A stretch of DNA of 64,000 bases from Odontesthes bonariensis. Its lineage: Eukaryota > Chordata > Actinopteri > Atheriniformes > Atherinopsidae. The position numbers and the translations under genes were made by a program. Location of the stretch: positions 39,528,797 through 39,592,796 of the forward strand of contig NC_134507.1 of the NCBI RefSeq assembly GCF_027942865.1, in the 5' to 3' direction. This document shows, piece after piece, positions 1 through 32,438 of this stretch (positions are counted from its first letter, which is position 1; every line of letters begins with the position of its first letter). The notes beneath the pieces are model-generated. The model had not been told where the DNA came from. It saw only the letters and a program-made list of their open reading frames with translations, and made no database searches.

Positions 1-119
1 AGGGGTGCTTAAGTGTGGGTACACAGGGCCGGCTGGAGGGCCTGGAGCCTCTCGGGCTGGATGTGTGTGCACACAGGGCACGAGAGCCTGGATGTTGGGA
101 GAGGAAAGCAGCTGTGAAT

Positions 120-290
120 GTAGGTGCTTATTGGAGTTCCTGTTGCCTTCCTGTCACCTGGAACCAATCTGCCCATTCTCCTCTGACCGCTCACATCAAC
201 AAGGCATTTTCACTGGATATTTTCTCTTTTTAGGACCATTCTCTGTCAACTCCAGAGATGGCTGTGGGTGAAAATCCCAACAGATCAGAA
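120..290 (-). repeat. Interspersed teleost repeat, copy 1
   Basis: A block of about 165 bp contains the stretch CTTCCTGTCACCTGGAACCA and the words AAGGCATTTTCACTGGATA and CTCTTTTTAGGACCATTC, followed by AGAGATGGCTGTGGGTGAAA. I recognise this as part of a very common fish repeat, read here in reverse. About 100 bp of it recurs at 1029-1131. No coding potential is visible. Confidence 0.6.
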
Positions 291-1020
291 ATGAACACGT
301 TCAATTTGACATATTTATAGAAGGTGCGCACGTTAATCATGTGTAAAAAGCTCATTTTTCGTAAAAATGGTAAATTTCAGTTCATTTGTTTTGAGTTTGA
401 GACCCCCCAGTGGTCCCAGCATTGAGCCCTCAGACAGTCCTCCACTAATAGGTCTAATTAACTTTTAACATTCACTGTGTCACAAGCTTCATGTAAACCT
501 AGAAAAAGGGCTGCAAAGTGTTGCTTGTTGTCCAAGGATTCTATTCATTCATTCTTAGGCCAGAAATATACCTGCTTTTGATCATGGATACACGTGTTTA
601 TCCCGGCTGCCTCTTTGTTTGCAGCATCCCTTGCGGACATCCTCAACAATTAGCGCTACGCGCTTACGCTCATTTTTATGTAAAAAGGGTAAAAAAAAGG
701 GTTTCAATTTCAGTTATTTTGTTTAATTGAGAGCTACCACAGGGGTCTCACAATGAAACAAACTAACCCGGTAGCTGCATCGACCCAAAAAAAAAAAAAG
801 AATAATTTAATCCGTCAGCGGAACTATAGCGGAAATGTCATTTTTCCGTTCCGCCACTAAATCGACTGCGACTGAAATGGAGACTCGTCAGGCCAGGCAG
901 CGTTTTTCCAATCTTCTACTGCCCGGTTCCAGTGAGCCTCAGTGTCCTGCTGTCAGCTGACAGGAGCAGCACCCGGTGTGGTCTCCTGCTGCAGCAGCGC
1001 AGCTTCTTCTGCCTTCCTTG
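291..1020. other. No recognised gene
   Basis: Non-coding sequence with scattered A runs, including one of 13 near 787-799. I see no splice-bounded open frame, RNA gene or recognisable transposon end. Confidence 0.4.
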
Positions 1021-1135
1021 GTTGGAACGAGCGCTTATTGGAGTTCCTGTTGCCTTCCTGTCACCTGGAACCAGTCTGCCCATTCTCCTCCGACTTCTCA
1101 CATCAACAAGGCATTTTCACTGGATATTTTCCACG
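1021..1135 (-). repeat. Interspersed teleost repeat, copy 2
   Basis: Near-identical to 127-226 over about 100 bp, from GCTTATTGGAGTTCCTGTTG to the word CACTGGATATTTTC. The flanks differ, so this is a dispersed copy and not a tandem duplication. Confidence 0.6.
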
Positions 1136-1424
1136 TGGAGTACCCCCCAAAAGATTTGTCTCAATGTTTGAATCTTTATCTAATTAGGCTCTAACCTCCT
1201 TAGTAGACACATGTGCATATGTATATGATAATCGCTGATAGACGCTCACTTTTCTTGTACTCCCACAGCTCGTGCACAAATCTAAACGATCGAAATGGTG
1301 CTTGTTTAGCTACTACTGACCATCATTAAGAGAAATAGCCTACAAATCAAATAGTGAGACACTTGCAGTCGGTCTGTTTTTTATAGTTGCGTTTCAAATA
1401 TGTGCATTGAGAAACCACCTTGAA

Positions 1425-1895
1425 CAGTGCAATTGACAATAAACAACATTACAAAAAAGACAATGGTGAACAAACATCAAAACAGCTGCAGCGTTCTATA
1501 TTTCTATAGCAGTAAAGTATACATATCTCAAAATATTTAAATAGTCTAATATAAATACCATAATATAATGACTCAGTATTATGTGTGATGAAATAACATA
1601 TGTATGATATACATATACATACAATATAATATAATTTAAATATAGGTATATATATATATATATATATATATACAATCATGCTCATAAGATTTTCACATCT
1701 AAGCAACAGTGCAATTGACAATAAAAAGTCATTTCACAAACAAAAACTTCTGATACAGAAGACAAATGTAAACAAACATCCAAACACCTGCTGCTATTAT
1801 AAATACCATGATATTTCAATAGTTTAATTCTAATACACATATAGTAATATAAAATATAATATAATAATTTAATATAATTTAAATATGTATGTATA
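1425..1895. repeat. AT-rich duplicated block with a (TA)n run
   Basis: Two diverged copies of a roughly 250-bp AT-rich segment. Both start with GTGCAATTGACAATAAA (1429 and 1709) and continue into a stretch with TGAACAAACATC or TAAACAAACATC. A (TA)n microsatellite lies near 1646-1672. No coding frame was recognised. Confidence 0.55.
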
Positions 1896-2155
1896 TTGTG
1901 ACGACCCCTCCGCTCCACTAGATGTCCCGGTTCTCTTTAGTGCTTCTTCCCTTCTGCAGAGAGTAAGGAGTGCTCGTCAGACTGATTGAGCACACCTGGG
2001 GCTTGTGCTTCAAAAGCTCCTGTCTTGCCAGTTTCGATCCCTCCTGACTTGCCTTTGACTTGCAGGGCGGCGGCTATTTTTGTTGCTTTGTGATCACTTA
2101 CACATTCACACACTCAGGCATGCATACACAACTGACAACTGACTTCCACGTTTCT
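1896..2155. other. Unassigned sequence before the hAT element
   Basis: A moderately GC-rich stretch of about 250 bp. I see no open frame, RNA gene or transposon end that I can assign. Confidence 0.35.
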
Positions 2156-3249
2156 TAGTGATGGCAAAACGAGGCTTTTTGAAGCATTGAATCTTTTTTA
2201 ATCATTGTGTCATAAAGTGGTTCACTACTCGAAGCTTCATTCAATTCCCTTGGGTGACATCTACTGGCGTAGCGATTTTTGCACCTTATGAAGCCCTGTG
2301 AATGTGATGCATATAATAACACGATAATAACACGTATGTATGTGTGTTGTACATATGGGTTTGTAGTACCTCATTAAAGATTGATTAATTTACCCATGAA
2401 ATAATAATTTACCCTCTCCGGGTCAGGAATGAGATCCTTCCCCAAGTGGAGGAGTTCAAGTATCTCGGGGTCTTGTTCACGAGTGAGGGACGAATGCAGC
2501 GGGAGGTTGACAGGCAGATCGGTGCGCCATCAGCTGAGCCAGAAGGAAAAGCTCTCGATTTACCGGTCAATCTGTGTTCCTACCCTCACCTATGGTCACG
2601 AGCTGTGGGTAGAGACCGAAAGAACGAGATCGCCAATACAAGCGGCCGAAATTAATTTCCTCCGCAGGGTGTCTGGCTCTCCCTTAAAGCCTGGTTTATA
2701 GTCGGTAACGCAAGACGCAAAGCAAGACGCAAGAAGAAACGCAAGCCCTTGCGCGGTTGCAAGCCCCCCATTGCGAGCTTGCGTGTGTCACCTCAATTTT
2801 CTAAACTTCACGCAAGAAAAAGACGCAAGCCTACTACTTGAAAACGGCATACTCATCGATCTGACAGCATGCAGAGCGTTTACACACAGTGCACTTCACT
2901 CTAGGCCGTAAGGTGAACCCCGTTTTCGTTTAGGCTCGCTCCGTGCTCTCCGAACTACATGCCCGTTAGCTGATAAAAATGACCAACTTATTTTGCACAT
3001 ATAAAAAAAGTTTCGCGTCACAGAATCCTGTACTTTTTTTAAACCGAGACGTTTTCTGAAGAAATATTTTCCGCAGGGCTGAATGACGATTTTGACGTCA
3101 CAAGACACCACGTGACCGCGCTGGACCAATCACGTTGCCGATTTACGACAACAAACTGGAAAAATGACAACCTGCCTGGTGCTGTCAAAACTAACCTACA
3201 GAAAGGAATCTCGCAAAATATCATTTTAAAGTGAACATAAAATAATAAT

Positions 3250-3590
3250 TATCAACGATAATGCTCATTCATATATTTCTGAATTGAGCCAATTTAGCCA
3301 TTTACCATTCAGGTATTCATTTACTGATTTATTCACTAATAACTATACAACACATAACAAAATCAAAACAAGTAGGGCATACACATCAACCGGCATAAAC
3401 TTATATACATAACCATAATAAAAGGAATGATACAAATGGAATAGAATAAAGGTAAAAAAAAACAAAAAAAACGCACGCACACACATACACTATTCCTCAC
3501 TGTCAGTGTCAGGGCAGCTGTCATCTTCTTTATCCTCTGTTTCCTTTGTGGTGTTTGAACAGCTGGAACACCTGCACAAGTCTACTTTAT
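3250..3590. other. A-rich non-coding stretch
   Basis: AT-rich sequence with A runs and a short (AC)n run near 3475-3490. No gene or element end was recognised. Confidence 0.35.
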
Positions 3591-4040
3591 TAATACTTTA
3601 TTAATCCCAATTAGAGAAATTGTTTTGTTGCAGCAGCATACAGTATATGAAAACAATTAAAGTAGTAAAAAACAAGCAAATAGAATAGAACAAAATAAAT
3701 ATAAAATAAAATAAAATAATATAAAATAAATAAAAATAGTGAATAAACATTTGCTATATACAAATCTACAGTATTTTTTGTTTTTTGTTATTGTTTTTTA
3801 GGAGAGACTTCAAGCCTATTGAGGTTGAAGTTCTCTTCCAGCCAGAGGGGAGGTGTTGTATATGGTGATGGCTGCTGGTAGGAAGGATTTCCTGAAACGG
3901 TCCTTGTGACAGTGGAGCTGGATGAGCCTGTTGGAAAAGGAGCTCCGCTGTCCAACCAGCAGCTGGTGGAGAGGATGGGTGGGGTTATCCATGATGGATA
4001 ACAGTTTGTGTCCTCCTCTCCACCACCGATTCAAATGAGT
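3590..4040 (-). mobile_element. Rex1/CR1-like LINE 3' end
   Basis: On the minus strand a short open frame reads LLSIMDNPTHPLHQLL, then FRKSFLPAAITIYN, and ends at a stop near 3816. This is the C-terminal tail typical of fish Rex1-like (CR1/Babar) reverse transcriptases. It is followed by an AT-rich 3' tail with GGGATTAATAAAGTATTAAT near 3590, which resembles the usual end of this family. Everything upstream in the LINE is missing, so this is a dead-on-arrival copy. Confidence 0.7.
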
Positions 4041-4801
4041 CCAATCTTTTGCTTTACACATGACCTTATTATTTTAGCCTGATAATTTGCCCTTTTGCAG
4101 TGCTGGTGGAGGGCATCACTTGTTGGGGAGATAGATAATTCTGGCAAGGCTGATGATGCCATACAGAAAGCTTTGTACCTAGCCTCATTGATGTTTTCTG
4201 CAGTTGGCTGATCGTACAAATGGCATACATATTTGCAAAGTAATGCAAATGTAGAGTGGTCCAAGTTAAATTCAGTCCCCAGATTTCTGAAAGCCTTCAG
4301 GTAGACATCTTTCTCGCATGCCACAGCAAATGTCTTCTTTTTGCCTTGTGGTGTCACACCCAGTGAATGTATGGATCCCAATCAAGGCTGAACACACACT
4401 GGCTCCGAGAGCTGATGACACCTTGGTAATGTCCATTATGCGTGTTCTGTTGCCCTTCCCTGTGAAGAAGTACAAGCTGCATGGCAAATCTTTCTGCAGA
4501 CTCACAGCAATGACTGCTACATCAGTGTCAGGGCTCTTAATAATGACAGTCTTATGTTCCTGTGCAGCATGTTGTGCATGCAAAAACACCAGTGTCACAT
4601 TCTTCGTGGTCACACTGCAGGTCTTCCACAGCATGAACAGACTGCACACCTTCCAGTACAGTCACGGTGACATTGGTGTTGATGTGCTATGTACAAGCTG
4701 AGGTTTCTTCCCACTGCTGTAAGATCAGCATGTGGCCACGCATCGTATAAGAACTCAGCAAGTGCTTCTTTATTTGTTCCTTCTGATTCCTTCCATTCCA
4801 C
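4041..4801 (-). pseudogene. Broken gene of the FTGCDTT family
   Basis: Minus-strand fragments in three frames share one domain order. First comes EGTNKEALAEFLYDAW (4610-4801), then TVIIKSPDTDVAVIAVSL and SALIGIHTFTGCDTT (4272-4649), then YVCHLYDQPTAENINEARY (4031-4381). I know this arrangement from an abundant, uncharacterised protein family found in repeats of fish and other animals; its function is not known to me. At least two frame changes separate the pieces, so the copy cannot make the whole domain. It sits next to a LINE tail inside a Rex3 copy, so it is probably a passenger and not a resident gene. Confidence 0.5.
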
Positions 4802-5486
4802 CTTGTGCAGGTGAAATTCTGTGTTTCCTCATGCTTAACAGAAGATATGTGCATGTAACAAATCTTTCGGTCGAAATTTCGTCTTCTTCGGTACTGCTGG
4901 ATGATCGCGCTGCTGCTGCGGTGCTGTTTTTGTTTACCAGCTCAGCTGACATACCAGCTATCCGATTCGTCCATTCTGATGACGTCTCAACCGTGGCACC
5001 TCTCGCGAGCCAAACTGTTATTACGCCTGCCGAATATGTACATACGCCTTGCCAGGCACTAGTTATTCCTTTAAACGTTGCGAACTAAAAAAGTGCTGTG
5101 TTCTGAGCGGCGAAACTTTTTTTTAAACCTCAACACAACTCAAATCTTTTTATGAGCTGAAGCGTGTTTGGTTCGGAGAGCGCGGAACAAGCCTGGTGTT
5201 CTGAAGGAGTTTTCGAGGTTCACCTTACGGCCTACTCCTGTCCGAGCCGAAATCAGCCAGCCTGAAAAGCTGATTTCCCTTAAGTTATAAACTCTGTAAA
5301 TATATAACTTTAGCAACATTTGAAACATTTTCAGGCGAGAAAGTAGTCGTTTAGACCCCCAAGGTGTTGAAAATCTGACAAAATACCGGCTATTTACAAG
5401 AAGAAGAAGCATGAATCCACTCGAAGAGGTCCTGGCGGTGAATTTCCTTTCATCATAGTAGGCTTGTCATTGAAAAAACCCGCTAC

Positions 5487-5659
5487 TCCACCTACTGTCC
5501 TGGCGGTGAATCGTCTTAAGGCTGAGTTATACCTCTTTTAACTGCCCTTGCGCTTGCGTCTTGCGCTTGTGTTAATGGCTCGAGACGTTTATGCTTCATT
5601 TTGATTTGCCGGCGGTTGCGTGTGCTGCGTGGCGATTCACCGCCAGGACAGTAGGTGGA
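5487..5659. repeat. Fold-back inverted repeat, 27-bp arms
   Basis: The left arm 5487-5513 (starts TCCACCTACTGTCCTGG) and right arm 5633-5659 (ends GACAGTAGGTGGA) are perfect reverse complements over 27 bp, around a 119-bp loop. The right arm ends where Rex3 sequence resumes, so it marks one edge of the insertion. A third partial copy (GGTCCTGGCGGTGAAT) lies near 5427. Confidence 0.8.
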
Positions 5660-6143
5660 CAGGGTGAGAAGCTCGGTCATCCGGGAGGGGCTCGGAGTAG
5701 AACCGCTGCTCCTCTGCATCCAGAGGAGTCAGATGAGGTGGCTCAGGCATCTGGTTAGGATGCCTCCTGGACGCCTGGTGAGACACGTCCCACTGGGAGG
5801 AGACCCCGGGGAAGACCCCGGACACGTTGGATCTCTGGCAGGGGAACGCCTCGGGGTCCCCCCAGGAGAGCTGGAGGAAGTGGCCGGGGACAGGGACGCC
5901 TGGGTTTCTCTGCTCAAGCTGCTGCCCCCGCGACCCGACCCCCGGAGAAGCGGAAGATGATGGATGGATGGATGGAATAATAATTTAAAAACAATGTGAA
6001 AATCTTTGGTTTGTCATTCATATTTTCTTTGGGAGTGTGCTTAGTGTAATAAAGAGGGTGCTTGTGTTATTTCAGGTGTTTTTATTCAAGAAAACAAGTT
6101 TTTGCACAGTAGAAGGGCTCAAACGGTTTCTTTTTCTTTTTTA

Positions 6144-6266
6144 GTCAATTTCTCCAGCTTTGGAAAATACTCTGTCACAGGGAACAGAGGAGGCTGGTGT
6201 GCTGAAGGAACTGTTTGGGTCGAAATATTCCCACACTTTAGAACGCTTCCTCGATGGTTGCTCCAT
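6144..6266 (-). pseudogene. hAT transposase remnant
   Basis: A 41-codon minus-strand stretch joins an N-terminal motif (RKRSKVWEYFDP) to a C-terminal motif (SSVPCDRVFSKAGEI), which would lie hundreds of residues apart in a working hAT transposase. It is the internally deleted core of the surrounding non-autonomous element and cannot be active. Confidence 0.6.
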
Positions 6267-6570
6267 GAGAGAATAATCCAAAACTCCGAATGTCAAAAAA
6301 CGAGAGCTGTTCGTAACGTATAATACGTGTAGAACGGGGACATGAACCGGGGCTTCAGCCATCTTGAATACACTGAATCGCGGCAAATGTTCAAAGCTCC
6401 GCACATCAACTCGAAGCAGTCAGCTGACTCGGTCTGAATGAAGCAGTGAAGTGGTTCAAACGTCATCAGTGACGTAACATGAAGCAAGCTCCGGCCCACT
6501 GCTTCACTAGAACTACCCTGTCGAGTTTGAAGCGTGCTTCGGAGCTTCGGTGTTGGAGGTAACATCACTA

Positions 6571-6623
6571 CACCCAGGACGAGGCTCAGCCATTGCACAC
6601 CGGCTGTACTGACCCTTGCGAAT
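6571..6623 (+). pseudogene. U1 snRNA gene fragment, nt 44-96
   Basis: Identical over 53 bp to nucleotides 44-96 of the U1 genes at 15946 and 16658, covering the region from CACCCAGGACGAGG to CCCTTGCGAAT. Its left edge abuts the hAT end. Its right edge abuts the 8.7-kb element. The last seven bases, TGCGAAT, reappear at 15323-15329, where U1 resumes. This is therefore the upstream side of an insertion site within a U1 gene. Confidence 0.9.
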
Positions 6624-6690
6624 GGCGATGTGCTGAATAGGAGTGCAATTGACCCTGCGAGCCATTGGCTTAGAGTCCATGTAGGTGCAA
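6624..6690. repeat. Left terminal region of the U1-inserted element
   Basis: Starts GGCGATGTGC directly after the U1 duplication. AGTGCAA lies at bases 19-25 and CATTGGCTTAGAGTC at 6663-6677. Both motifs recur inverted at the right end, so these are candidate transposase-binding sites. Confidence 0.6.
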
Positions 6691-7383
6691 TTAAGAATTC
6701 TGATGTCACTGACCTCAAGAGTAATTTGCATATGCCTTCCCCCAGGTCTTGTGGACCAGGAAGGACCAGGATATTACAGCACAAATGGCACACAATTTTA
6801 TAGTTGCACCAAGCATAAGCCCCCTGCATCCATTTGCGCACAAAAGTCCCCTCCTGGCATGCTTTTGCATGGTTTTGTCATGTCAATCAACAGAATAAAG
6901 TGTTAAATGCATTTATTGTCATACTTTTGCTATATCTCAAGTGTGTGTATGAACAAAAAGCTATTCAAAATTCATGCCATGTAATTTTTTTTGCTCCCTT
7001 TCTTTCAATAAAGTATTATTGATTATCACTTACTCCTATGCCTCTTATGCTACTTCCCTAGAAGCCATTTATTTATATGGCCCTTATTTCTGATAACTAG
7101 GCTCTGTTATTGTTGAATCAATTGACAGACACTCCACGACTCATTGTGACTGTAGCACTGACCATTTTTATTCAGTACCACAGCAAACAGCATCCAAGGG
7201 CAATGTTGACACCAGAGGGTGCAGTGCCGAGGAACAACAAAAGGTGCTGCGTTAAAGGGCACTCAGAGAGGGCACAGAGGACCATGAATTGCATGGCATT
7301 GTGGAGCAATACAAAATGTAATGGCACAGTTTACAGAGCATCACAGAAGTGCAACTTTAAAGGGCACTTTAAGACCAGAACAC

Positions 7384-7795
7384 GGAGAACAACCCCACAT
7401 AAAGTGAATGAAATAGGGCAACAGTGCAGAGAACAACCCCACATTAAGTGAATGAAATAGGGCAACAGTGCAGAGAACAACCCCACATAAAGTAAATGAA
7501 AGAGGGCAACAGTGCAGAGAACAACCCCACATAAAGTAAATGAAACAGGGCAACAGTGCAGAGAACAACCCCACATAAAGTGAATGAAACAGGGCAACAG
7601 TGCAGAGAACAACCCCACATAAAGTGAATGAAATAGGGCAACAGTGCAGAGAACAACCCCACATAAAGTGAATGAAATAGGGCAACAGTGCAGAGAACAA
7701 CACGTGCCATGTTTAAGGGCAATTGTTCGTCCAGAACACAGAGAACAACCCCACATAAAGTGAATGAAATAGGGCAACAGTGCAGAGAACAACAC
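7384..7795. repeat. 44-bp minisatellite in the transposase 3' UTR
   Basis: About seven tandem copies of a 44-bp unit (GAGAACAACCCCACATAAAG, then TGAATGAAATAGGGCAACAG, then TGCA) at 7385-7700. A separate copy lies at 7740-7790 beyond a short unrelated stretch. The array lies downstream of the minus-strand stop codon at 7945. Open frames across it on the minus strand are by-products of the repeat. Confidence 0.85.
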
Positions 7796-7944
7796 ACAGA
7801 ACGCAGAGCATGAACACAGCAACTATATACACTATTTACAAAGGGCCGACCGTTCACTCCTCCAGTCCGTCCACAACGGACATGAAGTGTTCAAAGTTTT
7901 TGAAAACTATGTCTTCCAGTCCTTTGGAGGGTGAACGGTGAATC

Positions 7945-10050
7945 TCAGGGCAATATGTCTTTTTTTTTATATTTTTTGTGTCCCTGGATTTTGTGCCCGC
8001 AAACTTTGCAGGCCGGGAGACGCTGCACCTTCACGCCCAGCTCAGTGGGGTGGTCTGCCAGCTTTCTCTTGTACAGAGTCGATCGGGACCACGACAACCC
8101 TACCACAGCACTTTGTCCAGAGGGCGGCTTTACACCTGGCCTGATGGGCACAGACGCCGTGACCTGCGGGATGGAGGCCTGACCAGCAGGCTGTGTGGAG
8201 GAGGAGACGAGGGGCAGCAGAGGCGTGGTGATGGTGGACGGGGCAGAGCAGGAGACGAGGGGCAGCACTGCAGTGGGCCTGGTGATGGTGGACGGGGCAG
8301 AGCAGGAGACGAGGGGCAGCAGAGGCGTGGTGATGGTGGACGGGGCAGAGCAGGAGACGAGGGGCAGCACTGCAGGAGGCCTGGTGATGGTGGAGGTGGT
8401 GGGGATTCTCCTCACCGGCAGACGGAGCAGCTGTGGAGGAGGCTGCGGCGTCTCCAGCAGCAGGTTGGTCCGACCCCTCAACACCTTGGTGCCGGCTGTG
8501 CTGGGCGTGGGGACGTACTCCATCACGGGGTAGTCGGGTGGAGGGAGGACGTCCGGCTGGCGCGGTGCAGGAGGCAGCTGCTCACAGGACACAGACGCGG
8601 CCTTTGAGGTCACAGCTGGCTGCCTGGTGGCGTGGAGGTTGACCAGCCTCTCCTGCTGGCGGATGAAGTCTCTCACCGTCTTGGTGTTAATTTTGGGGAG
8701 AGGGATGCCCGCCTTGCACAGGACGGGGTCCTCTACCAAGACCCGGTGCTGGATCCTCTCATAGGCCTTGAGAATGTTGGCCTTCTCAGGGCTGGAGCGA
8801 GAGGCCTGTGGGCTGCGCAGCCACAGCAGCTTGACCAGCACGTACATCAGCCTGTTGTGCTGCGGGCTGATGTCCTGCTGAGCTGGCGCGTACCTCCTAG
8901 CCATCTTTACCCGCTGGACCACGGCGGCGTCAGCCAGGTCGTCCCTCTTGGTCCGACAATATAGCGTGTTGCCCCAGTGGGTGCGGTAGAGCTGGTGGTA
9001 CCGCTGTGGCTGCTTGTCATGCTCCTCCACCGCGTTCCAGGCATGAAGGACCCTGTTCCGCTCTGCTGTGCTGAGGAGCAGCTTCTGCTCTGTCAAGCCG
9101 ACCTCCAGCAGCGCAGCACAGAAAGCCTCCAGCTTCTGGAACCCGGGCAGAGGACTGACACTGCAGACGTCGTCCTGTAAAACACACACACAGAAAAGTA
9201 GGTAAGTTTCAATGTATACGATGTCTTGTTTTTTCAGTGGGTCACATGTATCGCTGTATTCTCTTCTATCAGTATGTATTGGACTCACAAAGGCAGGAGG
9301 GTTGACCGAAGCAGTCTCGCTGCTGGTCAGTCTGATGTGGGGCTCCACATCAGTACGGTCCTCCTCGCTCTGGTACGCCTCGTCGGCGTCTGGGTCGACC
9401 TCCCCAGGCTGAACGACCTCCTCCTCCGGCCCAGGACCGTCGCTGACGATGCCCTCCAGCGAGAACGCCTCCCCCGTGCTTTGGCTGAAGAGGTACTCCA
9501 GCCCGAGCAGCTCATCGGACTGGACATCAGCCGGGGCCCGGAAGTTGCGCTCCACTGGCTCGCCCAACAGCTGCTGGCAGCGGGAGTTCAGGCGGTCAAT
9601 GAGCGGCGCAGAGTACACCCGGTGGTGCCGCCCTCCGCCCCCAAACACCGCGTCTGAGCTGCGGTCAGCGTTCCACCTGGCGATGCCGCTTATCAGGTAA
9701 ACCTGATAAGGCCGCGCCGCACAGTGGGGACCTGAACATCACAACAAACAGGTATTATCAGTACCTCAGTTATCATGTGATAAACGTGTTTTTTTTGTTG
9801 GTATTTTTCCCCCTTAGATTACCTGGAATCATGTGGGGCAAAGATTTATGGAACCCCTCCAGGCTGTTGCTCCCACGCAGGCCCTTATAATATGGGACGT
9901 CCACACCGTTGATGGTGGTGGTGCGGGCGACACGATACATGACCATGCCTGGGGGGTCCTGGATGCACTCCAGGTGTCGCTGCTGGGCTGCCCACATCTC
10001 ATCAATGGCCGCTGTAAACACACACACACATGTTGAGCTGTAGTCATTTT

Positions 10051-10092
<42 letters not shown>

Positions 10093-13000
10093 TTTTTTTT
10101 TCCTTATCAGGGGACTTGAAGAGGCTGACGCCGCTCTCATCCTGCCCTGCTGGACCCTTCAGGTCCTCGATGAGGAGGTGGACCAGGCGAAACGTCTCCT
10201 GGGCCCCGAGGGTGACGCGCCGGACATGGTGCTTCAGCTGGTCCCGGGAGACGTACCGCCGGACCACGTCCTCATCACTCACCACCTCCATGGTGGCCGG
10301 GTCTCTGGCCCTGATGGCAGCGATGAGGAGCTGGAGGTCCTCGCGGTTGTAGGCCAGCACCGCCCCGACCAGCGCGGATTTAAAGGGGCCGTATTTGGAG
10401 TGAGCCTCCGTTCTTAGAGCGGCGTCAAAACGGTGGAGCCAGTGGAAAATGTCCAGCCTCACCACCATCCCCTCGTCCACCCAGGACTGGAACATGATCT
10501 CCACCGCGGTCAGACCCTGTGCTTTGCAGCAGCCGCGGTCGATGTAGAGGATCTGGGGGACGGGCTGGTTTGCGAGGCGAAACCTCTCCATCACCCCACG
10601 ACACATGGGCCCCAGCTTCTCCACCGACTCCTCGCAGGTGAGCACAAAGCTGACGATCTGGGAGAGCTCGTTGCCGATGCTGGTGAACCACTCAGCCGAG
10701 CCCTTGCCCTCCCCAGACAGCTTCTTCACCACCTACAACAAAACAAACAAACAAATACAGTTTAGCTTTGCATAATGTGGTGTTTCCCTGTGAGTACTTG
10801 TATGCAACACACTTTTGGCTAACTTGCCTTCTTCGTGGAGTCCATTTTCAGCACTTTGCCGAACGTGGACAGGATCTGGCTCCGGTAATCCTGCACGTTG
10901 TCCGCCTTGGCCAGGAGGAAGGCGTGGCGCAGGAGCCGGGCGCAGGGAACCGCTCTCGGAGGGGGCGGTGCCTGGAACTCCCTGTGGCCCAGCGCAGAGA
11001 TGATGCCTCTGGGTTCCACCAGGACCATGAGGAGTGTGGTGTAGAGGTCCTTCCTCTCGTGGTAGTCCTGCAGGTGGTTCTCCTGCACCTGCCGCCACAC
11101 CTTGACCATCGTGTTACCCTCCGTTCTGTCACGCAGGAGGCGAATGATGGTCTTGTCCACCCCTCGCCTGGCAGTCAGTATGGCGGGAAACCTGGCCCGA
11201 TGTGCCTCGCTCAGCTGCCGGAGGATGGCGTCGTCCCACGCCAGCCACCGACCCATGGGTCCGCTCTCTCCACCTCTGGCAGCCTTGAGACACGGCCCGC
11301 ACGACAACATCTCTGTCGCCAGGGTGTACCAGCCCAACACATCACAGATGTGACGTACCTAAAACAGAGAGAGAGAGAGAGAGAGAGAATCACAGGTCAA
11401 TCACAGGTTGCAGATATGCAACAAGCTTTTTATTTATTTACATTATTTATTTACATTACATTTTTTGCATTTTATGTGTGCTTCACTTTTTCACAACAAA
11501 GATCTGTGAAATCTTTTTGATTTGTTGTTGAATGGAAAGTTTATGATGGTTGCGTTCCGCACTTTGTATTAAGAATGTTCAATAAAGATCTATTACATAC
11601 ATTTTATTGTGGTAGCAGCAGTTCATTATACCTTTTTTGCCAATCGATCTGCAGAGAATGACTTGGTTGTGTGAACAAAATTAATCAGGAAAGCCCACAG
11701 TTGCAAAAATGCAACATTGCCTAAAATGATTAAAAATAGCCCAATTTCAAAAATTCCAAAAATATTGGTGTATTCCCACCCAAAAAGATGCAAGAAGAGC
11801 CAAAATGATTTTTTTCAATGATTATTCGTATGCTTGGGTGCTACAAGGTTAAGTAGTCAATGGTGATGTGTGTATTTCTCTGAGCACAGCTGTGCAGAGA
11901 CTGAGCCTTACCCGGGAGTGGTAGCCAGACTTGGAGAGGTGTGAGTTGCCTCCAGCCCCGGCACACTTCTCTCCGCGCGGACACTTCAGGGAGCACCGCC
12001 ACACTCCAACGGGACGCCAGAAGAAAAAGCGGCCTCGGAAAAAGGCCTGTGGAGTGGGAATGCCGCCGCTCACAAAGCCGGGTGGCTCGGGTGGGTAGAA
12101 CCACATCCGGTCTGACTTCAACACTCGCCGCCTTCTAATGGCGCCCTTTATGTCCTTGTAGACCTGGACTGGTGTGAAGAGGCCTCGCTCGCTGTCCTCC
12201 TTCAGCCAGGGGATGTCGGCAGAGGGGATTCCGTTGGGGTCTTCCCAGAGGCGCACCCAGCCTTCCAGCTCCACCTGCAAGACACAAGGTGTACAACAAC
12301 GCACAACATTTAGTTATTTATTTTCCCTAATGTGGTGATTTTGTGAAATGCATTAACATTGCTTGTGTATTTTGTGATTTTACACTTACAGAAGAGTCAC
12401 TCTGTGACAAGGTGGTGGCAGACGCAGGCTGTGAGGTCGACGGCGGCTCCTCGGGACGAGCATCAGGGGCACCCTGACCAGGCGCTGAGGACGGCACGGG
12501 CGTCTGTTGTTCAGGAGACTCAGTAGAGGCAGCCTTGCTGGTGGACGGCTGTGAGGACAGCAGGAGCTGCTTTGAGGCAGCCTTGCTGGTGGACGGCTGT
12601 GAGGACAGCAGGAGCTGTTCGTGCTGCTTTGAGGCAGCCTTGCTGGTGGACGGCTGTGAGGACAACAGGAGCTGCTTTGAGGCAGCCTTGCTGGTGGACG
12701 GCTGTGAGGACAGCAGGAGCTGCTTTGAGGCAGCCTTGCTGGTGGACGGCTGTGAGGACAGCAGGAGCTGCTTTGAGGCAGCCTTGCTGGTGGACGGCTG
12801 TGAGGACAGCAGGAGCTGCTTTGAGGCAGCCTTGCTGGTGGACGCCTGTGAGGACAGCAGGAGCTGCTTGTGCTGTGTTGAGGCAGCCGTGCTGGTGGAG
12901 GGCTGTGAGGACGGCTTCTGCTGCTTGCTGTGCCTTTCCTTCTTGCTGGTGGACTTCTTTGGAGAAGCTGGCACGCTGGTGGAGAGTGGCGACGGCTGTT

Positions 13001-14128
13001 TGGGACCCTCGGCGGAAATAGGAGGAGGCTGACTGGCGGAGATGGGCTCCCCATGGCTCTCGAAGGTGACGAGGGCATCCACCAGAGCAGTGTCGTCCGG
13101 AGCGTCGTCAGACCATGGCGCCTGGGAGGTGGCAGCTGCAGCAGGGGCCCTTGAAGTGGCAACGGCGGCAGCAGCAGGAGGAGGAGTGGCGCTCTGTGAA
13201 TTACAGGTGAGTGTGAGCTATTACATTATTATTGGGTTTTGCAGTGTAGTTACAGAATGTAGTGTAGTTACCTCTTTACCCAGTATATACTGTCTGAAGC
13301 GTTTGAGTGACTTCGAGGTGATGTCACTCTCCCGCATCAGCAGCCACTGCTTGACAGAGCTGTGGGCCTCCTGCGCCATCCTCCGCTCCTGCTCACTGCC
13401 GGCTTGAGGGTCAGATTGGTGGCGCTGGTACCACTGCCACATCTCGAGGAACGTGAACGACCGGAAACGGCCCATGCCGTAAATGGCCTTGTCCACGTTC
13501 CTCTCGAGGTGGCAGGAGATGGCCGGAAAGAGCTCCACGTACTGCAGCAGGCTGTCCTTCAGCCACTCCTCGTTTAAGGCACCACGCTTCTCCGGCTGCC
13601 GGCTCTCTTTAACGTGGCGGTCGACGAGACTGAAATGCACACACACACACACACATCGCTGTTAGTTTCAGTGAAGGGAAAACTGTTCCTGGCTTGCTTT
13701 GGTTTTCTTGTAAATGCTTACTACTTGACGTAGCCCACGTCGTTCTCGACCAGCCACTTAAAGGTCCAGCCGGTGTAGCGGCCGAAGGTCAGGACCAGCT
13801 GCCCCAAGTACTGGGCCTCAGTCGGCCTCTGTACGCCGCAGCGCCTCTTTGCTGAAGACGGGACATGTTATGACCTCAGTGAACAGGCAAGCAAAAGCTC
13901 TAGTGCACCACATTGTCATTACTTATATATTTATAGTATAAATGCAATGCCAAGATGTTTACCCTCCTCAAAGGCAGTCTTGGGGTCCCTCAGTTTGTCG
14001 TCCCTCGGACAAACCTGACCTCTCCCCTGCTGGGCCTTGGCTGCCTTGGAGGCTGCCAGAACGCATTGCTGCCTCTCTACCGGCAGGCTGGTGTTCAGTA
14101 TGTTGAGGGCTGGCAGCAAAGTATCCAT
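7945..14128 (-). CDS. Ten-exon DUF6729 and DDE transposase-like protein
   Basis: Exons by eye (5' to 3'): 14128-13963, 13851-13722, 13629-13272, 13193-12390, 12274-11912, 11358-10828, 10732-about 10105, 10011-9823, 9731-9289, 9174-7945, giving about 1,600 residues. Phases join correctly except at exon 7/8. Exon 6 ends in a GC donor (AAG/GCAAGT). Order of parts: an N-terminal piece with [20 protein letters not shown]; an alpha-helical RFRSFTFLEMWQWY region; a Ser/Pro/Lys-rich linker of repeated SSQPSTSKAASKQLLL; a FFFWRPVGVWRC region; a DUF6729-like region (ICDVLGWYTLATEML, then LTARRGVDKTIIRLLR); and a DDE-like core with candidate acids in KMDSTKK, ILYIDRGCC and SNSLEGFHK. A basic tail ends KKYKKKDILP. 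I see no stop within the exons. The start is the first ATG in exon 1; a CAATTTCAG acceptor sits just upstream, so a 5' non-coding exon is likely. The likely role is transposase of the surrounding element; host use cannot be excluded. Confidence 0.75.
10054..10087. repeat. (GT)n microsatellite in intron 7
   Basis: About 17 GT dinucleotides between exons 7 and 8 of the transposase-like gene. The donor just upstream is not canonical (CCTGATAAGG follows the last clear codons), so the repeat may have disturbed this intron. Confidence 0.9.
12535..12905 (-). repeat. 48-bp coding repeat in exon 4
   Basis: About eight tandem copies of a 48-bp unit encode SSQPSTSKAASKQLLL on the minus strand, some with extra residues such as HE before QLLL. 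The unit is a multiple of three, so the frame is kept. It forms a flexible, basic, Ser-rich linker between the N-terminal and DUF6729 parts of the protein. Confidence 0.9.
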
Positions 14129-14379
14129 GTCCTGAAATTGTCAACAGACTTTTAGCAATATCATGATCATTATAACCATTGCAATAGTCACTATTATTAG
14201 ACAAATGGAGGCAAAAGCCATAGCATTGCCACCAGAATTGAAAATGTACAATAGGCAAATGTAACACGTATTAAAATTCATACAAACGAGGTGGATATTT
14301 TATTTTTTTTTGCATAAATAATGTCACCGGGCCAAATCACAGACGCACTTGACAGAGTTGCAGCTCGAAAGGGCGCATG

Positions 14380-15065
14380 TGCACTGTCGCTGGTGTCACT
14401 CGACTTTCATTTTACAACGCTAAAAACGTTATCTATTATCTGTTGATGTTACATTCACAAAGTAGACAGGAAAACGATATAAATATAGCCATGCTGTATT
14501 TTTTTCTTTTGCTAAAAATAAACTTTATAGCGTTGCTAACACCCTCCGGTCACCCAGCTTTAACATTACGCTAAAAACCTTGTATTCCAAATAAACAGGT
14601 GATCTTTTTGATAAATTACAGAGGTATATCGCTAGAATATGATCGTAGTAGGTAAATGCGGGACATTTTTATCAATTACAGAGGTATATCGCCAGAATAT
14701 GATCGCAGACGAGCAAGAGGGTCTGGCTGCAGACCTGTACTGCCGCTGGTGTCACTCGACTTCCATGTTACAACGTTAAAAACGTTATCTGTTATCTGTT
14801 GATGTGACATTCACAAAGTAGACAGGAAAACGATATAAATAAAGCCATGCTGTATATTTTTTTTGCTAAAAATAAACTTTATAGCGTTGCTAACACCCTA
14901 CGGTCACCCAGCTTTAACATTACGCTAAAAACCTTGTATTACAAATAAACAGGTGATCTTTTTGATAAATTACAGAGGTATATCGCTAGAATATGATCGT
15001 AGTAGGTAAATGCGGGACATTTTTTATCAATTACAGAGGTATATCGCTAGAATATGATCGTAGTA
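14380..15065. repeat. Two tandem copies of a ~350-bp segment upstream of the gene
   Basis: 14383-14713 and 14736-15063 align nearly end to end (CGCTGGTGTCACTCGACTT, then GTAGACAGGAAAACGATATA, then AGGTATATCGC). A further partial copy of the AGAGGTATATCG part occurs in each. The block lies between the first exon and the right end of the element, so it may hold 5' UTR or promoter sequence. No open frame was recognised. Confidence 0.8.
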
Positions 15066-15118
15066 ACAAACTGTACCTTCGTAGCAGCCTCTCGGTATTT
15101 CGCGAGTTGGTTTGGCTT

Positions 15119-15322
15119 GAATTGGCAAAGAGCCTCTCTGATTGGCTTAGAGTGTACGTTTAGAATGTAGACTCCTCTCTGATTGGCCTAGAGTCTACAT
15201 TTAGAATGTAGACTCCTCTCTGATTGAACTAGAGTCTACACTTAACGTAGACTCTAGGCCAATGACAGGCTGTAACTGTCTACAAGAAACGTAGACTTTT
15301 GCACTTCAGTTCGGAAATCTTC
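15119..15322. repeat. Right terminal region with subterminal repeats
   Basis: Three direct copies of CTCTCTGATTG followed by GCTTAGAGT, GCCTAGAGTC or AACTAGAGTC lie at about 15134, 15174 and 15216. One inverted copy (GACTCTAGGCCAATG) lies at 15250-15264. Each carries ATTGG, the inverted CCAAT core, so the same array could serve as transposase-binding sites, promoter elements for the minus-strand gene, or both. The outer end is TTTTGCACTTCAGTTCGG and so on to 15322. Confidence 0.6.
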
Positions 15323-15397
15323 TGCGAATTCCCCAAATGTGGGAATCTCGACTGCATAATTTCTGGTAGTGGGGGACTGCGTTCGCGCTCTCCCCTG
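15323..15397 (+). pseudogene. U1 snRNA gene fragment, nt 90-164
   Basis: Identical to the 3' part of the following U1 genes, from TGCGAATTCCCC through the GTAGTGGGGGACTGCG stem to CTCCCCTG. It is the downstream half of the U1 gene split by the 8.7-kb element; the first seven bases duplicate those at 6617-6623. The downstream 712-bp spacer is intact. Confidence 0.92.
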
Positions 15398-15945
15398 ATT
15401 TGACTGTATAACGTAAATATCCCTGGGCAACTCTACCTTGGTTTTTGTCCTGGCGTTGCTGCTTTAACGACACCTTTCCATCTTTAAAACCCATGTTTTG
15501 AAAGGTTTGCTGAATGCTGCGGCAGGTCTGCACAGCTGATATGCAGCTGCGCAGTTGTCAGGTGAGGTCATACGGTGCAGTCACCCCAGGCAGGTGGGCG
15601 TTGCCTTAGTGATGGCAACAACGAGATGAGAATACGGCAGCATTTCTGCACTGGAGATATTAAGCCGTGAGGGTTTGCCTCAACTAAGAATTTTCCCAGT
15701 GTGGGTGGGTGTGGCTCTAGAGACGGGGAGAGTGGAAAAACTAAATCAATTTGTGCTCCAAGTTCCTTGGTTGTTGAAACAAGAACTGATCAGAAAGATG
15801 AAGAAAAGCCGGACTGTTTTAATCTGCAAGCTTTTCAGATTCAGGTTAGCTGCTGGCATGGCACTGCAGACAGTTGAATTTGCTGCACCGTCCGGCCGAG
15901 TGAGGCACCTGGAAAAGAGGTGTCAGCTTCTGACAGTTCCAACTC

Positions 15946-16109
15946 ATACTTACCTGGCAGGGGAGATACCATGATCAAGAAGGTGGTTCACCCAGGACGA
16001 GGCTCAGCCATTGCACACCGGCTGTACTGACCCTTGCGAATTCCCCAAATGTGGGAATCTCGACTGCATAATTTCTGGTAGTGGGGGACTGCGTTCGCGC
16101 TCTCCCCTG
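15946..16109 (+). ncRNA. U1 snRNA, copy 1
   Basis: 164 bp, the usual U1 length. The 5' end ATACTTACCTGGCAGGGGAG contains the sequence that pairs with 5' splice sites. The Sm site is AATTTCTGG and the 3' stem TAGTGGGGGACTGCGTTCGC ends CTCCCCTG. The region just downstream (ATTTGACTGTATAACGTAAA) is where a 3' box would lie. U1 RNA forms the U1 snRNP that defines 5' splice sites. Confidence 0.93.
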
Positions 16110-16657: not shown

Positions 16658-16821
16658 ATACTTACCTGGCAGGGGAGATACCATGATCAAGAAGGTGGTT
16701 CACCCAGGACGAGGCTCAGCCATTGCACACCGGCTGTACTGACCCTTGCGAATTCCCCAAATGTGGGAATCTCGACTGCATAATTTCTGGTAGTGGGGGA
16801 CTGCGTTCGCGCTCTCCCCTG
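16658..16821 (+). ncRNA. U1 snRNA, copy 2
   Basis: Identical to copy 1 across the 164-bp transcript as far as I can read, with the same 5' end, Sm site and 3' stem. The downstream sequence differs by ACTGAATAACG in place of ACTGTATAACG. Confidence 0.93.
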
Positions 16822-17369: not shown

Positions 17370-17533
17370 ATACTTACCTGGCAGGGGAGATACCATGATC
17401 AAGAAGGTGGTTCACTCAGGACGAGGCTCAGCCATTGCACACCGGCTGTACTGACCCTAGCGAATTCCCCAAATGTGGGAATCTCGACTGCATCATTTCT
17501 GGTAGTGGGGGACTGCGTTCGCGCTCTCCCCTG
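17370..17533 (+). ncRNA. U1 snRNA, copy 3 (variant)
   Basis: 164 bp with an intact 5' splice-site-pairing end. It differs from copies 1 and 2 at three places: CACTCAGG for CACCCAGG, CCCTAGCG for CCCTTGCG, and GCATCATTTCTGG for GCATAATTTCTGG. The last change hits the first base of the Sm site, so this copy may assemble poorly and could be a pseudogene. Confidence 0.85.
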
Positions 17534-18346
17534 ATTTGACTGTATAACGTGAATATCCCTTGGCAAGGCCCTCAGCTTGTACAAAGTGCAAAATCGGATT
17601 TAGACTTTAGGACAAATAAGGCATATTATTGGGTAAAAGATTTGTCAATCAAATCCATGGAGAGGGAGGGATGGGAAATCATGGGCATGCTGTACTATTG
17701 GTCAATTAGCTGTCAAAAGCTGCCAGGCCATGTGGTGAAGTGTTGTGGCAGGGTGAATCTAGGGAAATGTACAAAATACGACTTAAATGATCGTTTTATA
17801 CAAGTGTTTTGTCTAATTGGGAGTGTTGGACATTGAATCGTGTTTTAATGATTGCATTGCTGTCTATTGATCACTTTTGAGTGATTTATTAATTCACCCA
17901 CCAGCTGGTACTTGGTATTGTATGAAAAAAAGAAAAAGGTGGTTAAAAAAAGACATGAGACTAATTGGTGTGGCTATTTTCAGAAACATTTGGATGTGAA
18001 TGTAAACAAAAACTCTAAAGCTCTTATTTTTGTCTTTCCATAGGTCGACCCGCTGGTTTGAGGCCTACATGGTGATTATGGGGGAAATGACACACTGTTA
18101 CCTCTGCAACATTGTCTATTAAGTCAATAAACTTTTTTTATTTCTTCACAGTTGTATGCTGTTCATGTGTTTATTATTACAGATGATGGTATATCATGAA
18201 TGATTATAATTACTGGTAGGTTACATTATAATGAATAGATTGAAGGAGAACATTGAAAGTGTTGACTTGGAAATGACACAACACACTGCTACTGCGATTC
18301 AAGGCACTTTAAGGGCTGAAGTGCATTTATTCAAGTGCATTCTCAT

Positions 18347-18420
18347 TTAGTAAACAAAGTTAACACATGTATAGTGCACATTTTTCATGACAAGACATTT
18401 TAAATTAAGTGTGTGAGGGG

Positions 18421-18451
<31 letters not shown>

Positions 18452-18560
18452 AGGGGGAGGTGGAGGTGGAGGGAGAGTGTGTGTGTGTGAGACAGAGACA
18501 GACTGACTGACCAGGAGCAGTGGGCAGACAGGAGAGAGAGCCATGTGCAACAGCAGATAT
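18347..18560. repeat. Purine-rich low-complexity tract
   Basis: A GA and G-rich stretch, including (GA)n then a G run near 18420-18448 and (GT)n near 18477-18490, in the 3' flank of the truncated gene. No coding meaning. Confidence 0.8.
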
Positions 18561-18732
18561 GGGAACAAACAAGAAATCAAGTGTAAGTGAACAATACAAA
18601 TGAGAACTGTATACATGTGCATGTAGGAGTGCAATCAGGAAACTATATACACAAACAACAACATAGGGACATCAAAGATAAGAGAAAAAAAAAGTTCAGA
18701 CAAGTCAAGATCAGTCACTGGGCCTCAGTCAT

Positions 18733-20368
18733 TTACCAGCCGTTGATGTCACAGATGGGCCTCACCGTGTTGCCGTAGCCACAGCGGTACAGGAAAGCCT
18801 TCGGGTTGTCCTTGGCAGGGCAGCCGGGCTCGGTGCAGCGGACGCTGTAGCGCCACACACCAACTGGCCTCCAGAAGAAGACGCGGTGTCGGAAGAAACT
18901 GTCTGCCACGGGGACCGTGCTGCCATCCACCACACCGGGCATCTCGGGAGGGTGGAACCACATCTTTTCACTCTTCAGGACCTTCCTCCACCTATTCCTG
19001 CCGTACATGTCAGAGAAGGGCCGCGGCTTCAGAAAGAGCCCCCTCTCCTCATCCTCCTTCAGCCACTTAATGTCTTGCTCGGGCAGCCCGCTGTCCTCAG
19101 CCTCCCAGGATTTGTGCCATCCTTCAAACAGGATGGCGTCTTCACCACCAACTGCCTCCTGTGACTGGCTCTCTGTAAATACAAAAAAACCCAAAACACA
19201 TTGAATATAGTATATCCACACTGTCGAATGAGGCTTTTCATTACAGCAGCCCACTGGATGTGACATGCATGATCTGTGTGCTATTAGCCAGTAAACTAAT
19301 ACAACTTGTGTTAAATGAATATGTACCTTGTGTTTCGTAGGTGGACAGAGCCTCCACAAGCAGAGCGTCGTCTTCTCAGCTGGGGTCTGCTGAGCTGGCA
19401 GTGGTGGCTGATGGACGGGGCGCAAAGAAGGAGGGTACCGGTGAAGAGGTAGGCACAGCTGCACGGGTGCTGGGGTGGCAGGCGATGGTGCTGGGGCAGC
19501 CGACTTGGAGGAGGCCTTCTTCTTCGGCTTTGCGGTGGAGGTGGGGGATGCTGCTGCTGCTGCTGGTGCTGAAGGGGGCTTTGTGGTGGAGGTAGGTGTG
19601 GCTGATGGACGAGCCTTGCTGGTGATGGAGGGAGGTGCAGGAGGAGGAGGTGATGGAGGGGCCTTGCTGGTGGTGGGTGGTGCTGCTGCTGCTGCTGCAG
19701 ATGCTGCTGGGGGCTTGCTGGAGGAAGCAGACGCGGTGGAAGGAGTGGCTACACCCTGCTTAGGAGGAATATTACATTTCAGTTTTGCTGAATACATTTG
19801 TTATGTCATTCCTTTATACACATGTTCACCTGCACACATACCTCCTTGTCCAGAATGTACTTTCTGAACCTCTTGAGGGCCTTTGAATTGATGTCATCCT
19901 CCTTCATGATGAGCCACTGTGTCACCGACGTGTAGGCCTCCTGCGCCCTCTTCCTCTCAGCGTCGCTGCCAGCCTGAGGATCCGCCAGGAGCCTCTTGTG
20001 CAGGCTGTACCACTGCCACATCTCCAGGTAGGTGAACGACTTGAACCTCCCCTGTCCATAGATGGCCCGGTCCACATTCACCTCCAGGTGGCACGAGACG
20101 GTGGTGAAGAGGTGCGCGTACTTGACCAGCTGCTCCTTCAGCCACTCGTCGTTGATGGTCTTCCTCTTCTCAGGGTGCCTCATCTCCTTCATGTGGCGGT
20201 CGACGATGCTGAAATGGCATAGTAATGTAACATAGTGATACAGTACTATTAAGTTATAACACTATTCACATGGCGATCACTTACTATTTGCAGTAGCTGA
20301 CATCATTCTCGACCAGCCACTTGAAGCTCTTGCTGGTGTACTGGCCAAAGGTCATCACCAGCTGCCCC
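18733..20368 (-). pseudogene. Truncated DUF6729-family gene, N-terminal part only
   Basis: Exons by homology to the gene at 7945-14128: 20368-20285 (partial; [14 protein letters not shown]), 20208-19842 (VDRHMKEMRHPEKR, then RFKSFTYLEMWQWY), 19755-19327 (Ala/Pro/Ser-rich linker) and 19172-18733 (VFFWRPVGVWRYSV to ICDINGW then TAA). The last exon reads straight through a point where the larger gene has an intron and stops just inside the DUF6729 region, so the transposase core is absent. The frame that splices into the last exon (DALLVEALSTYETQ) is interrupted by a TGA just upstream and differs from the frame at the start of that exon. With the missing first exon, this argues for a pseudogene. 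Confidence 0.65.
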
Positions 20369-21259
20369 TCTACATTTGCCACAAAACACCTTCGTGCAGG
20401 CCTCCACCAGGTGCCCGTGCTCCCCACATTTGCGGCAGAGTTTGGGCTGTCCCTGGTAGTGGATGTAGCCTCTGTTTTCTCCCAAGACAATCATTGATGG
20501 GAGATGTTTCAGGCCCTGGAAGCCCTGGGGGTCTTGCCATTGTTGGATGGGGACCCTCCAGGCGCAGTTCCAGATGCCGTCGACATCCCTCACCTTCATT
20601 GCCTGGCCTTTAACAGTGCAGAATCTTCCCAACCATATACAGATATCTTCTGCGTTCACCATTTCATTGAACATTCTGACAATTACTGTCTTCAGAGTAT
20701 TGTTAGTAAGTTTCTCAACAGTAAACACAGAAAACTGGGCTTGGACATTTTCAAATCTCGTCCAAAACTCCTGCAGCAAAGCTGCAGTGCGAAAACTTAC
20801 ATCGAAACCTTTGTTAAAAGGCAATGACAGGATGCAATTCAAATCGTCTGGCTTGAAGTTCAATATGTTTTGAATTAGCTTCCGAGAGAAGTCCAATCAG
20901 GACATCTCTATGAGCTTTCCATCTTTTTCTTTAAATAAAAATCTAGCGCTGTGGTGCCTCCTCATGCCAGCATAGTTAGCCGACATGATGGAGGCACCAC
21001 AAACAGTTTTTAAATAAAATGCTTAAAATAACAATAATAAATATCACACTAAAAGCCCAATAAAAGAGTAAAAAGTGGATAAAAAGGTACTAAAAAGGGA
21101 TACTTACCTTACTTACTTACCAGGAAAAATTAAATACAAAGAACTCCAACTACAAAAGACTTGGAATACTTTGATCGAACACAAAAAAGAACCTCCAAAG
21201 CGAGAAAATTTAATGCCAAAAAGGCATAAAATAGTCCACCCAAAAGGAGGCGATCGCAG
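20369..21259 (-). mobile_element. Keno (Tx1-clade) LINE, 5' fragment
   Basis: Directly follows the first 26 bp of U2 on the minus strand. ORF1 starts at 20986 and matches the fuller copy at 31441-32094, including CNLC-type zinc-knuckle sequence [14 protein letters not shown] and KVFCGKCRG. One AGA-to-TGA change near its start (EMS*LDFSRK) breaks ORF1. The element stops at 20369, where it joins the truncated DUF6729 gene, so most of ORF1's end and all of ORF2 are missing. Confidence 0.8.
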
Positions 21260-21285
21260 TCTTAGCCAAAAGGCCGAGAAGCGAT
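21260..21285 (-). pseudogene. U2 snRNA 5' end (nt 1-26), copy A
   Basis: The minus strand reads ATCGCTTCTCGGCCTTTTGG and then CTAAGA, the invariant start of U2. After nucleotide 26 the sequence passes into Keno. The rest of this U2 copy is absent. Confidence 0.9.
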
Positions 21286-21460
21286 AACCCTCCACTGTTT
21301 CACGTCCGAGCGCCCTTCCTGGCACAATGCGCACTTGTGGCGGTGCTCTTTTTTTGCCTACAAAGCGTCACTTTGCACCTCCGCCCACCCGCTGCAGTGA
21401 GCACTCTTCAGCCGTTTCAGATGGTACAACTTTGCACTCCTGCCCGCTCCACTGAGCACC
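21286..21460 (-). promoter_or_regulatory. Probable U2 snRNA promoter region, copy A
   Basis: About 175 bp upstream of the U2 start is almost identical to 32439-32598, although flanks beyond differ. It includes the GC-box-like CCGCCCACCC and two TTTGCAC words. The shared block ends abruptly in both copies at GCCCGCTC. Placement and conservation support the usual proximal and distal snRNA promoter elements; I did not assign each. Confidence 0.5.
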
Positions 21461-21580: not shown

Positions 21581-21699
21581 GGCTTCACCCGCAAAGGTAA
21601 AGCCTTCCAAAAATAGAAACAACTCATTAATGTTGCTCTCCACGGAAGTCTTTAGTAAAAGGCGAAAGACTTGTACGTTATGAAGAGAAACCAGAGTAC
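21581..21699 (-). ncRNA. U5 snRNA
   Basis: The minus strand reads TACTCTGGTTTCTCTTCA, then the invariant loop I region CGCCTTTTACTAAAG, the partner strand CTTCCGTGGAGAGCAACA, the Sm site ATTTTTGG and a 3' hairpin GGCTTTACC/GGGTGAAGCC. The length is about 119 bp, as expected. All core parts are present, so it may be functional. The first base is G where A is usual. U5 aligns exons in the spliceosome. Confidence 0.9.
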
Positions 21700-22005
21700 G
21701 AGTATTTGACACTGCGGGAGCAGTGCATCAGGCTAGTTGGCATAGCCACCTTCCCCACGGTGAGCTTTGCTTGGTTGAGACGCTGGCTCCTCGGCCGACC
21801 AGGTAGGAACAATCGGGCCCTATTCAATGGCTGCTTTGTCTTTTACTCTGTGCAAAAGACTAGGGGTCTTGAGGCTTTGTTCTGACCGCTCATTGGGTGT
21901 AGAGGTTTTTTTCAAGCAATTCTCCCAGTCGGCCCAATCCCAGAGCCATCTCAAAGTGGAGTTCACTTTCACTCTCTTTTTTCGCAGACTAAAAGCCAGA
22001 GTTTT

Positions 22006-22082
22006 ATCTCAGAAGCTAAGCAGAGTCGGGCCTGGTTAGTACTTGGATGGGAGACCGCCTGGGAATACCAGGTGCTGTAAGC
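22006..22082 (+). pseudogene. 5S rRNA, 3' two thirds
   Basis: Matches 5S from the region ATCTCAGAAGCTAAGCAG to GGTGCTGTAAGC and includes most of the internal control region (AAGCTAAGCAGAGTCGGG and GGGAGACCGCCTGGGAAT). The first ~43 bp are missing, so it is a pseudogene. Confidence 0.88.
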
Positions 22083-22310
22083 CTTTTGGCTTCTCCAGGC
22101 GCATGCAGTTTGACTGCGTCAAATGCAGAGGCAGTCCCTGTTTGACTTTTTGGAACTGCTCCTTTGTCAGGACAAAGTTAAATGTATGAGGATCAAAGGC
22201 AACCATGACCTGGGACACCTTAGCAGATCCAGGATCAGCAAGATGGATCACAGGGTGATCATCAGATGTTTCAACAAAAGACATGCAGAGAGAAGAGAAG
22301 AGAGAAAAAT
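22083..22310. repeat. Spacer segment shared with 32599-32840
   Basis: Contains AGGACAAAGTTAAATGTATG and TCAGATGTTTCAACAAAAGA, both found again next to the other U2 start at 32599-32830. It is probably original spacer of the 5S/U2 cluster. A minus-strand frame (VAFDPHTFNFVL) is open but I do not recognise a protein. Confidence 0.6.
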
Positions 22311-26840: not shown

Positions 26841-26889
26841 CTTAAAAGACTAAATGAGGGTTAAAACATTTAAAATGTCTTAAAAGCAG

Positions 26890-32412: not shown

Positions 32413-32438
32413 TCTTAGCCAAAAGGCCGAGAACCGAT
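32413..32438 (-). pseudogene. U2 snRNA 5' end (nt 1-26), copy B
   Basis: Reads ATCGGTTCTCGGCCTTTTGG then CTAAGA on the minus strand, with one change (C5 to G) from the standard start. It is the upstream half of the U2 gene interrupted by the full-length Keno. Confidence 0.9.

Follow-up and report, generated by a model that had tools for sequence, protein, structure and literature searches.

The 64,000-nucleotide window analyzed here, from Odontesthes bonariensis, contains an 8,700-bp element (6624–15323, minus strand) whose gene runs antisense to the U1 snRNA gene that flanks it. Judged by its junctions and by published marks (PMC3706591), we assign this element, with a probability of about 0.96, to the target-specific DNA transposons of the Dada superfamily, Dada-U1 lineage. 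Dada is a superfamily of DDE transposons found inserted in multicopy small-RNA genes (Kojima and Jurka 2013, PMC3706591). A preliminary description of this DNA regarded U1 as a new landing site for a cut-and-paste element. This can no longer be maintained, as the available text of the literature places Dada-U1 in U1 genes in 2013 (PMC3706591) and, by 2022, lists two sublineages of it and five fish orders in which it occurs (Kojima 2022, PMC8869645). The element is a further copy of an already known kind, and U1 insertion by a cut-and-paste transposon is not new.

Insertion site and element ends

The U1 sequence is split around the element. Window positions 6571–6623 (plus strand) correspond to U1 nt 44–96 and are identical at 53 of 53 positions to the intact U1 copy at 15946–16109, while 15324–15397 (plus strand) is identical to nt 91–164 of the same copy. 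Both pieces, 6571–6623 and 15323–15397 (nt 90 to the 3′ end), have the same orientation, and both junctions contain the 7-bp string TGCGAAT. These coordinates, the shared orientation and the 7-bp string had been given in the preliminary description, and comparison of junctions and flanks with the intact U1 copies bore them out. Its reading of a DDE-type DNA transposon that entered a U1 gene and left a short target duplication also held.

Downstream lies a tandem U1 array built of 712-bp units, which 15323–15945 matches at 98.7% identity; its three intact genes follow at 15946–16109, 16658–16821 and 17370–17533 (all plus strand; Rfam scores of 158.2, 158.2 and 149.6 bits, respectively). It is the unit ahead of these three genes that is split, with its part from U1 nt 90 on at 15323–15945. 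This arrangement is not due to chance. The third, lower-scoring U1 copy carries point differences, for example CTAGCGAAT for CTTGCGAAT at the Dada target. On the other side, U1 likeness ends upstream of 6571, and a BLAST comparison of the window with itself found no U1 upstream of that position, where nt 1–43 were expected. As the left flank keeps no more than 53 bp of U1, the target gene is incomplete on that side. In place of nt 1–43, window positions 1–6570 hold non-U1 DNA with repeats and with open reading frames (ORFs) lacking a Pfam match, including two ORFs at 4031–4661 that matched no Pfam family at E 0.01.

No terminal inverted repeats are present, the ends GGCGATGTGC and AGAAGATTTC (reverse complement) being different. 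The hexamer GTGCAA lies exactly 19 nt inside each end of the element in opposite orientations, at 6643–6648 (plus strand) on the left and 15299–15304 (minus strand) on the right. The seventh base is T at the left end and A at the right (GTGCAAA). The complement of GTGCAA occurs in U1 at exactly 19 nt from GCGAAT, and is seen in the left flank as TTGCAC at 6593–6598. GTGCAA was counted 51 times in the window (both strands, 128,000 positions), so the probability of meeting it by chance at any one given place is about 4 in 10,000. Across the window, the strict form GCGAAT-N19-GTGCAA was found at the known left end only; the right end has the same 19-nt spacing on the other strand, but adjoins the target in the opposite sense.

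The insertion target here is GCGAAT, U1 nt 91–96, with copies at 6618–6623 and 15324–15329 (both plus strand) and an apparent overlap, TGCGAAT, that starts at 6617. The letters are CTTGCGAAT in the left flank and TTCTGCGAAT at the right junction. A 7-bp target duplication had initially been proposed. The shared 7-bp string stands, but the duplication itself is most likely 6 bp (GCGAAT) with one coincidental T, judging from the junction letters: next to GCGAAT, the element's own terminal CT would supply one matching T by coincidence and so extend the overlap to the 7 bp seen. A true duplication of 7 bp, TGCGAAT, could also account for the overlap. In zebrafish, Dada-U1A_DR and Dada-U1B_DR occupy one common U1 site, and the apparent 8-bp duplications of Dada-U1 (CTGCGAAT) are accompanied by a proposal that GCGAAT is the true duplication (PMC3706591). 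At the present site the left flank is TTGCGAAT, versus CTGCGAAT at the right, which rules out the 8-bp duplication here provided that the left flank is unmutated since insertion. The apparent 7 bp in this copy and 8 bp in zebrafish both fit a true duplication of 6 bp.

Transposase gene and its relatives

The element carries one gene on the minus strand, with ten predicted exons running from 14128 to 7945 and encoding 1,611 residues. The predicted protein contains DUF6729 (Pfam E 3.5e-43) and the catalytic residues D779, D848, DxxH (877–880) and E1043, in line with the single ten-exon gene with a DUF6729 region and a DDE-like core put forward in the preliminary description. Predicted exon 1 (13963–14128), which has the start codon, is followed by exons 2 (13725–13851) and 3 (13272–13629). 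Predicted exon 4 (12390–13193) comprises low-complexity Ser/Pro/Gln-rich repeats with 48/57-bp direct repeats. DUF6729 starts in predicted exon 5 (11912–12274) and ends in exon 6 (10828–11358), which also supplies the first catalytic D (779) and has a GC donor. The second D (848) and DxxH fall in predicted exon 7 (10108–10732), and the catalytic E (1043) in exon 8 (9823–10011). Predicted exon 9 (9289–9731) precedes exon 10 (7945–9174), which encodes a putative C-terminal zinc finger and in which the frame of this copy stops early. The anatomy, position, orientation, target, motif spacing and catalytic residues of the element can all be read directly in the window.

A homologue search with residues 486–1110 returned 43 proteins at E 1e-5 among 7,999 candidates scored. 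All 43 carry PF20499, and they are mostly from fish. The top homologue was R3I93_018338 (P0001), an uncharacterized DUF6729 protein of Phoxinus phoxinus with 88% identity over residues 486–1110, followed by proteins from Alosa sapidissima (82%), Sebastes (80%) and Esox (80%). In a FastTree phylogeny of 44 sequences, built without named Dada references, the window protein paired with the Phoxinus protein (support 0.991). Both fall in a fish clade of 16 sequences, set apart from the other sequences by a branch supported at 1.000. The comparison with this sister protein was made at the protein level.

The alignment comprised the window protein and every homologue returned (44 rows, none dropped). 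The catalytic columns were conserved in 42 (D779), 42 (D848), 43 (D877), 41 (H880) and 38 (E1043) rows. Spacing between the first and second D is 69 residues, versus 68 in Dada-U6_DR, and between the second D and E 195 residues, versus 176 (PMC3706591). A putative N-terminal CCCC finger would include C583 (40/44 rows), C626 (41/44) and C629 (41/44), with candidates for the fourth cysteine poorly conserved (C579, 9/44; C589, 15/44). Three residues of the putative C-terminal CCHC finger, C1591 (33/44), C1594 (35/44) and H1601 (33/44), are all present in the window protein; the last cysteine, kept in the closest homologues, lies outside the open frame of the window copy. A Pfam search of the catalytic-core ORF matched no family. 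Elsewhere, an Adeno_VII match in a low-scoring stretch of exons 9–10 (E 0.00041; 21.3 bits against a cut-off of 21.2) and an Endonuc_Holl match in another ORF (E 0.015, under the cut-off) were judged spurious.

Two apparent lesions suggest that the copy at 6624–15323 is damaged. The donor after exon 7 is AT instead of GT, and the frame stays open if this intron is kept. The last exon stops short of the final finger cysteine, where the closest homologues continue for some 35 to 40 residues. Because the frame change in the last exon adjoins a stretch of consecutive A, this second lesion may also be a sequencing error.

A second Dada fragment and neighbouring RNA genes

The third U1 unit breaks off at 17567, 33 bp downstream of its U1 gene, at the start of a fragment assigned to a second, different Dada sublineage (17567–20366, minus strand). 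At its left end GTGCAA is again placed 19 nt inside (17586–17591). An exon match at 18736–19146 shows 47% identity to the window protein and 65% to proteins P0016 and P0017, with DUF6729 at E 1.9e-13. Another at 19842–20216 shows 63% to the window protein and 75% to P0014. Within 17567–20366 no match was found to the rest of the transposase, including the catalytic core, and the right end is gone at about 20366, where LINE-like sequence starts. From these matches, the fragment is probably a remnant of another Dada sublineage inserted into the U1 spacer.

The spacer string CCCTTGGCAA is alike at 8 of 10 positions to the U1 target CCCTTGCGAA. Scored with the 10-base target string, the usual spacer reaches 7/10; two other sites tie with it and one more scores 8. 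With a 16-base string, the spacer site lay outside the best 8 of 1,424 U1-unit positions. Both scorings weaken the case for a strong cryptic target, and the spacer site resembles the U1 target only moderately. We hold as no more than tentative, and on balance doubtful, the combined proposal that a second sublineage of Dada-U1 type entered the U1 spacer, that two sublineages have used one array with near-cognate sites tolerated, and that an 8-bp duplication is ruled out at the main insertion.

The LINE-like sequence begins with an ORF1 (20367–21285, minus strand) encoding ZCCHC3-like RNA-binding domains and a zinc knuckle; positions 21260–21285, adjoining its 5′ side, we take to be U2 nt 1–26. 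The stretch 20367–21449 is repeated at 31475–32602 with 93% identity. A U5 gene and two 5S-like genes in opposite orientation occupy 21587–22418, the 5S-like gene at 22310–22418 lacking about 11 nt and that at 21961–22083 scoring weakly. Further along, a LINE region (22783–26849) has an ORF at 23310–26849 (minus strand) with AP endonuclease and reverse transcriptase. At about 22937 its A-rich 3′ end adjoins a U2 gene from which roughly the first 37 nt are missing. This is likely a U2-targeted LINE, presumably of the Keno or Utopia type. U2-associated LINE pieces sit in the same RNA-gene cluster as the Dada copies.

Relation to known elements and rival explanations

The available account of Dada-U1 describes elements without terminal inverted repeats, with a sub-terminal GTGCAAT/ATTGCAC motif common to U1 at equal distance (PMC3706591). 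Dada elements in general are marked by DxxH behind the second D, by CCCC (N-terminal) and CCHC (C-terminal) zinc fingers and by target duplications of 6–7 bp, and the Dada-U1 lineage by insertion at GCGAAT or GCGAAC in U1. The present element shares the GCGAAT target in U1, the sub-terminal GTGCAA mirrored in U1 and the absence of terminal inverted repeats. It also has a single intron-containing gene of the DDE type with DxxH, and its 8,700 bp lie within the published length of 4,666–10,979 bp. It differs in its right motif, GTGCAAA rather than the published GTGCAAT (PMC3706591), and in carrying two apparent lesions; the likeness is one of these marks. Dada-5S forms one branch together with Dada-U1 and has a similar target string (PMC8869645), but its target is the 5S rRNA genes, whereas the window copy sits in U1. 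The U2-targeting LINEs Keno and Utopia likewise target snRNA genes, and U2-joined LINE pieces are present in the window. They are, however, retrotransposons with reverse transcriptase, unlike the DDE cut-and-paste element described here.

Other origins for the split U1 gene were weighed against a clean Dada-U1 insertion. The flanks might derive from a one-ended joining or a later rearrangement, with the matching GCGAAT being simply the U1 sequence on either side. The left flank, with U1 nt 44–96 followed directly by unrelated DNA, fits such an event, and Dada copies with target sequence on one side only have been reported, with one-ended transposition proposed to explain them (PMC3706591). The U1 pieces are also identical to array copies and hence not assignable to one particular U1 gene. 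We nevertheless consider this origin unlikely, since the two junctions coincide exactly in U1 and show the duplication that one insertion would leave, and the short left flank is explained equally well by DNA lost or gained upstream of 6571 at a later time.

The assembly could instead have joined two U1 pieces of a collapsed array around a transposon contig. Tandem arrays are prone to such errors, and three near-identical 712-bp units lie immediately downstream. The junctions, however, match the published target position, and a motif spaced by 19 nt at both ends is unexpected from a mis-join, leaving an artefact very improbable. Chance insertion into U1 by an element of another superfamily, such as hAT or MuDR, is hardly credible: a DxxH-type RNase H core is common to several superfamilies (PMC3706591), but here it is combined with DUF6729, with ends lacking terminal inverted repeats and with the published Dada-U1 target and motif spacing. 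Moreover, the core ORF has no Pfam match, and hence matches no hAT or MuDR model.

For the favored Dada-U1 insertion, we infer the activity, chemistry and motif function of the element by analogy with its family. The intron-containing transposase gene would encode an RNase-H-like D-D(xxH)-E enzyme that may cut the U1 gene at GCGAAT (nt 91–96) and join the element ends there. A staggered cut followed by gap repair would then leave the 6-bp GCGAAT duplication, as expected from the family. Recognition may proceed via GTGCAA, 19 nt from the cut in both ends and in U1. Because the motif is placed at equal distance in all three, the arrangement points to a transposase that would bind the element ends and the target alike, as speculated in the published account (PMC3706591). 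The host would lose little when a single unit of the tandem U1 array is hit, because intact U1 genes remain adjacent.

Modest as a biological discovery, the insertion provides a Dada-U1 copy that is full-length and has clear ends, and it narrows down how long the target duplication is. It also ties DUF6729, an uncharacterized Pfam domain not named in any paper of the literature searched, to the Dada transposases.
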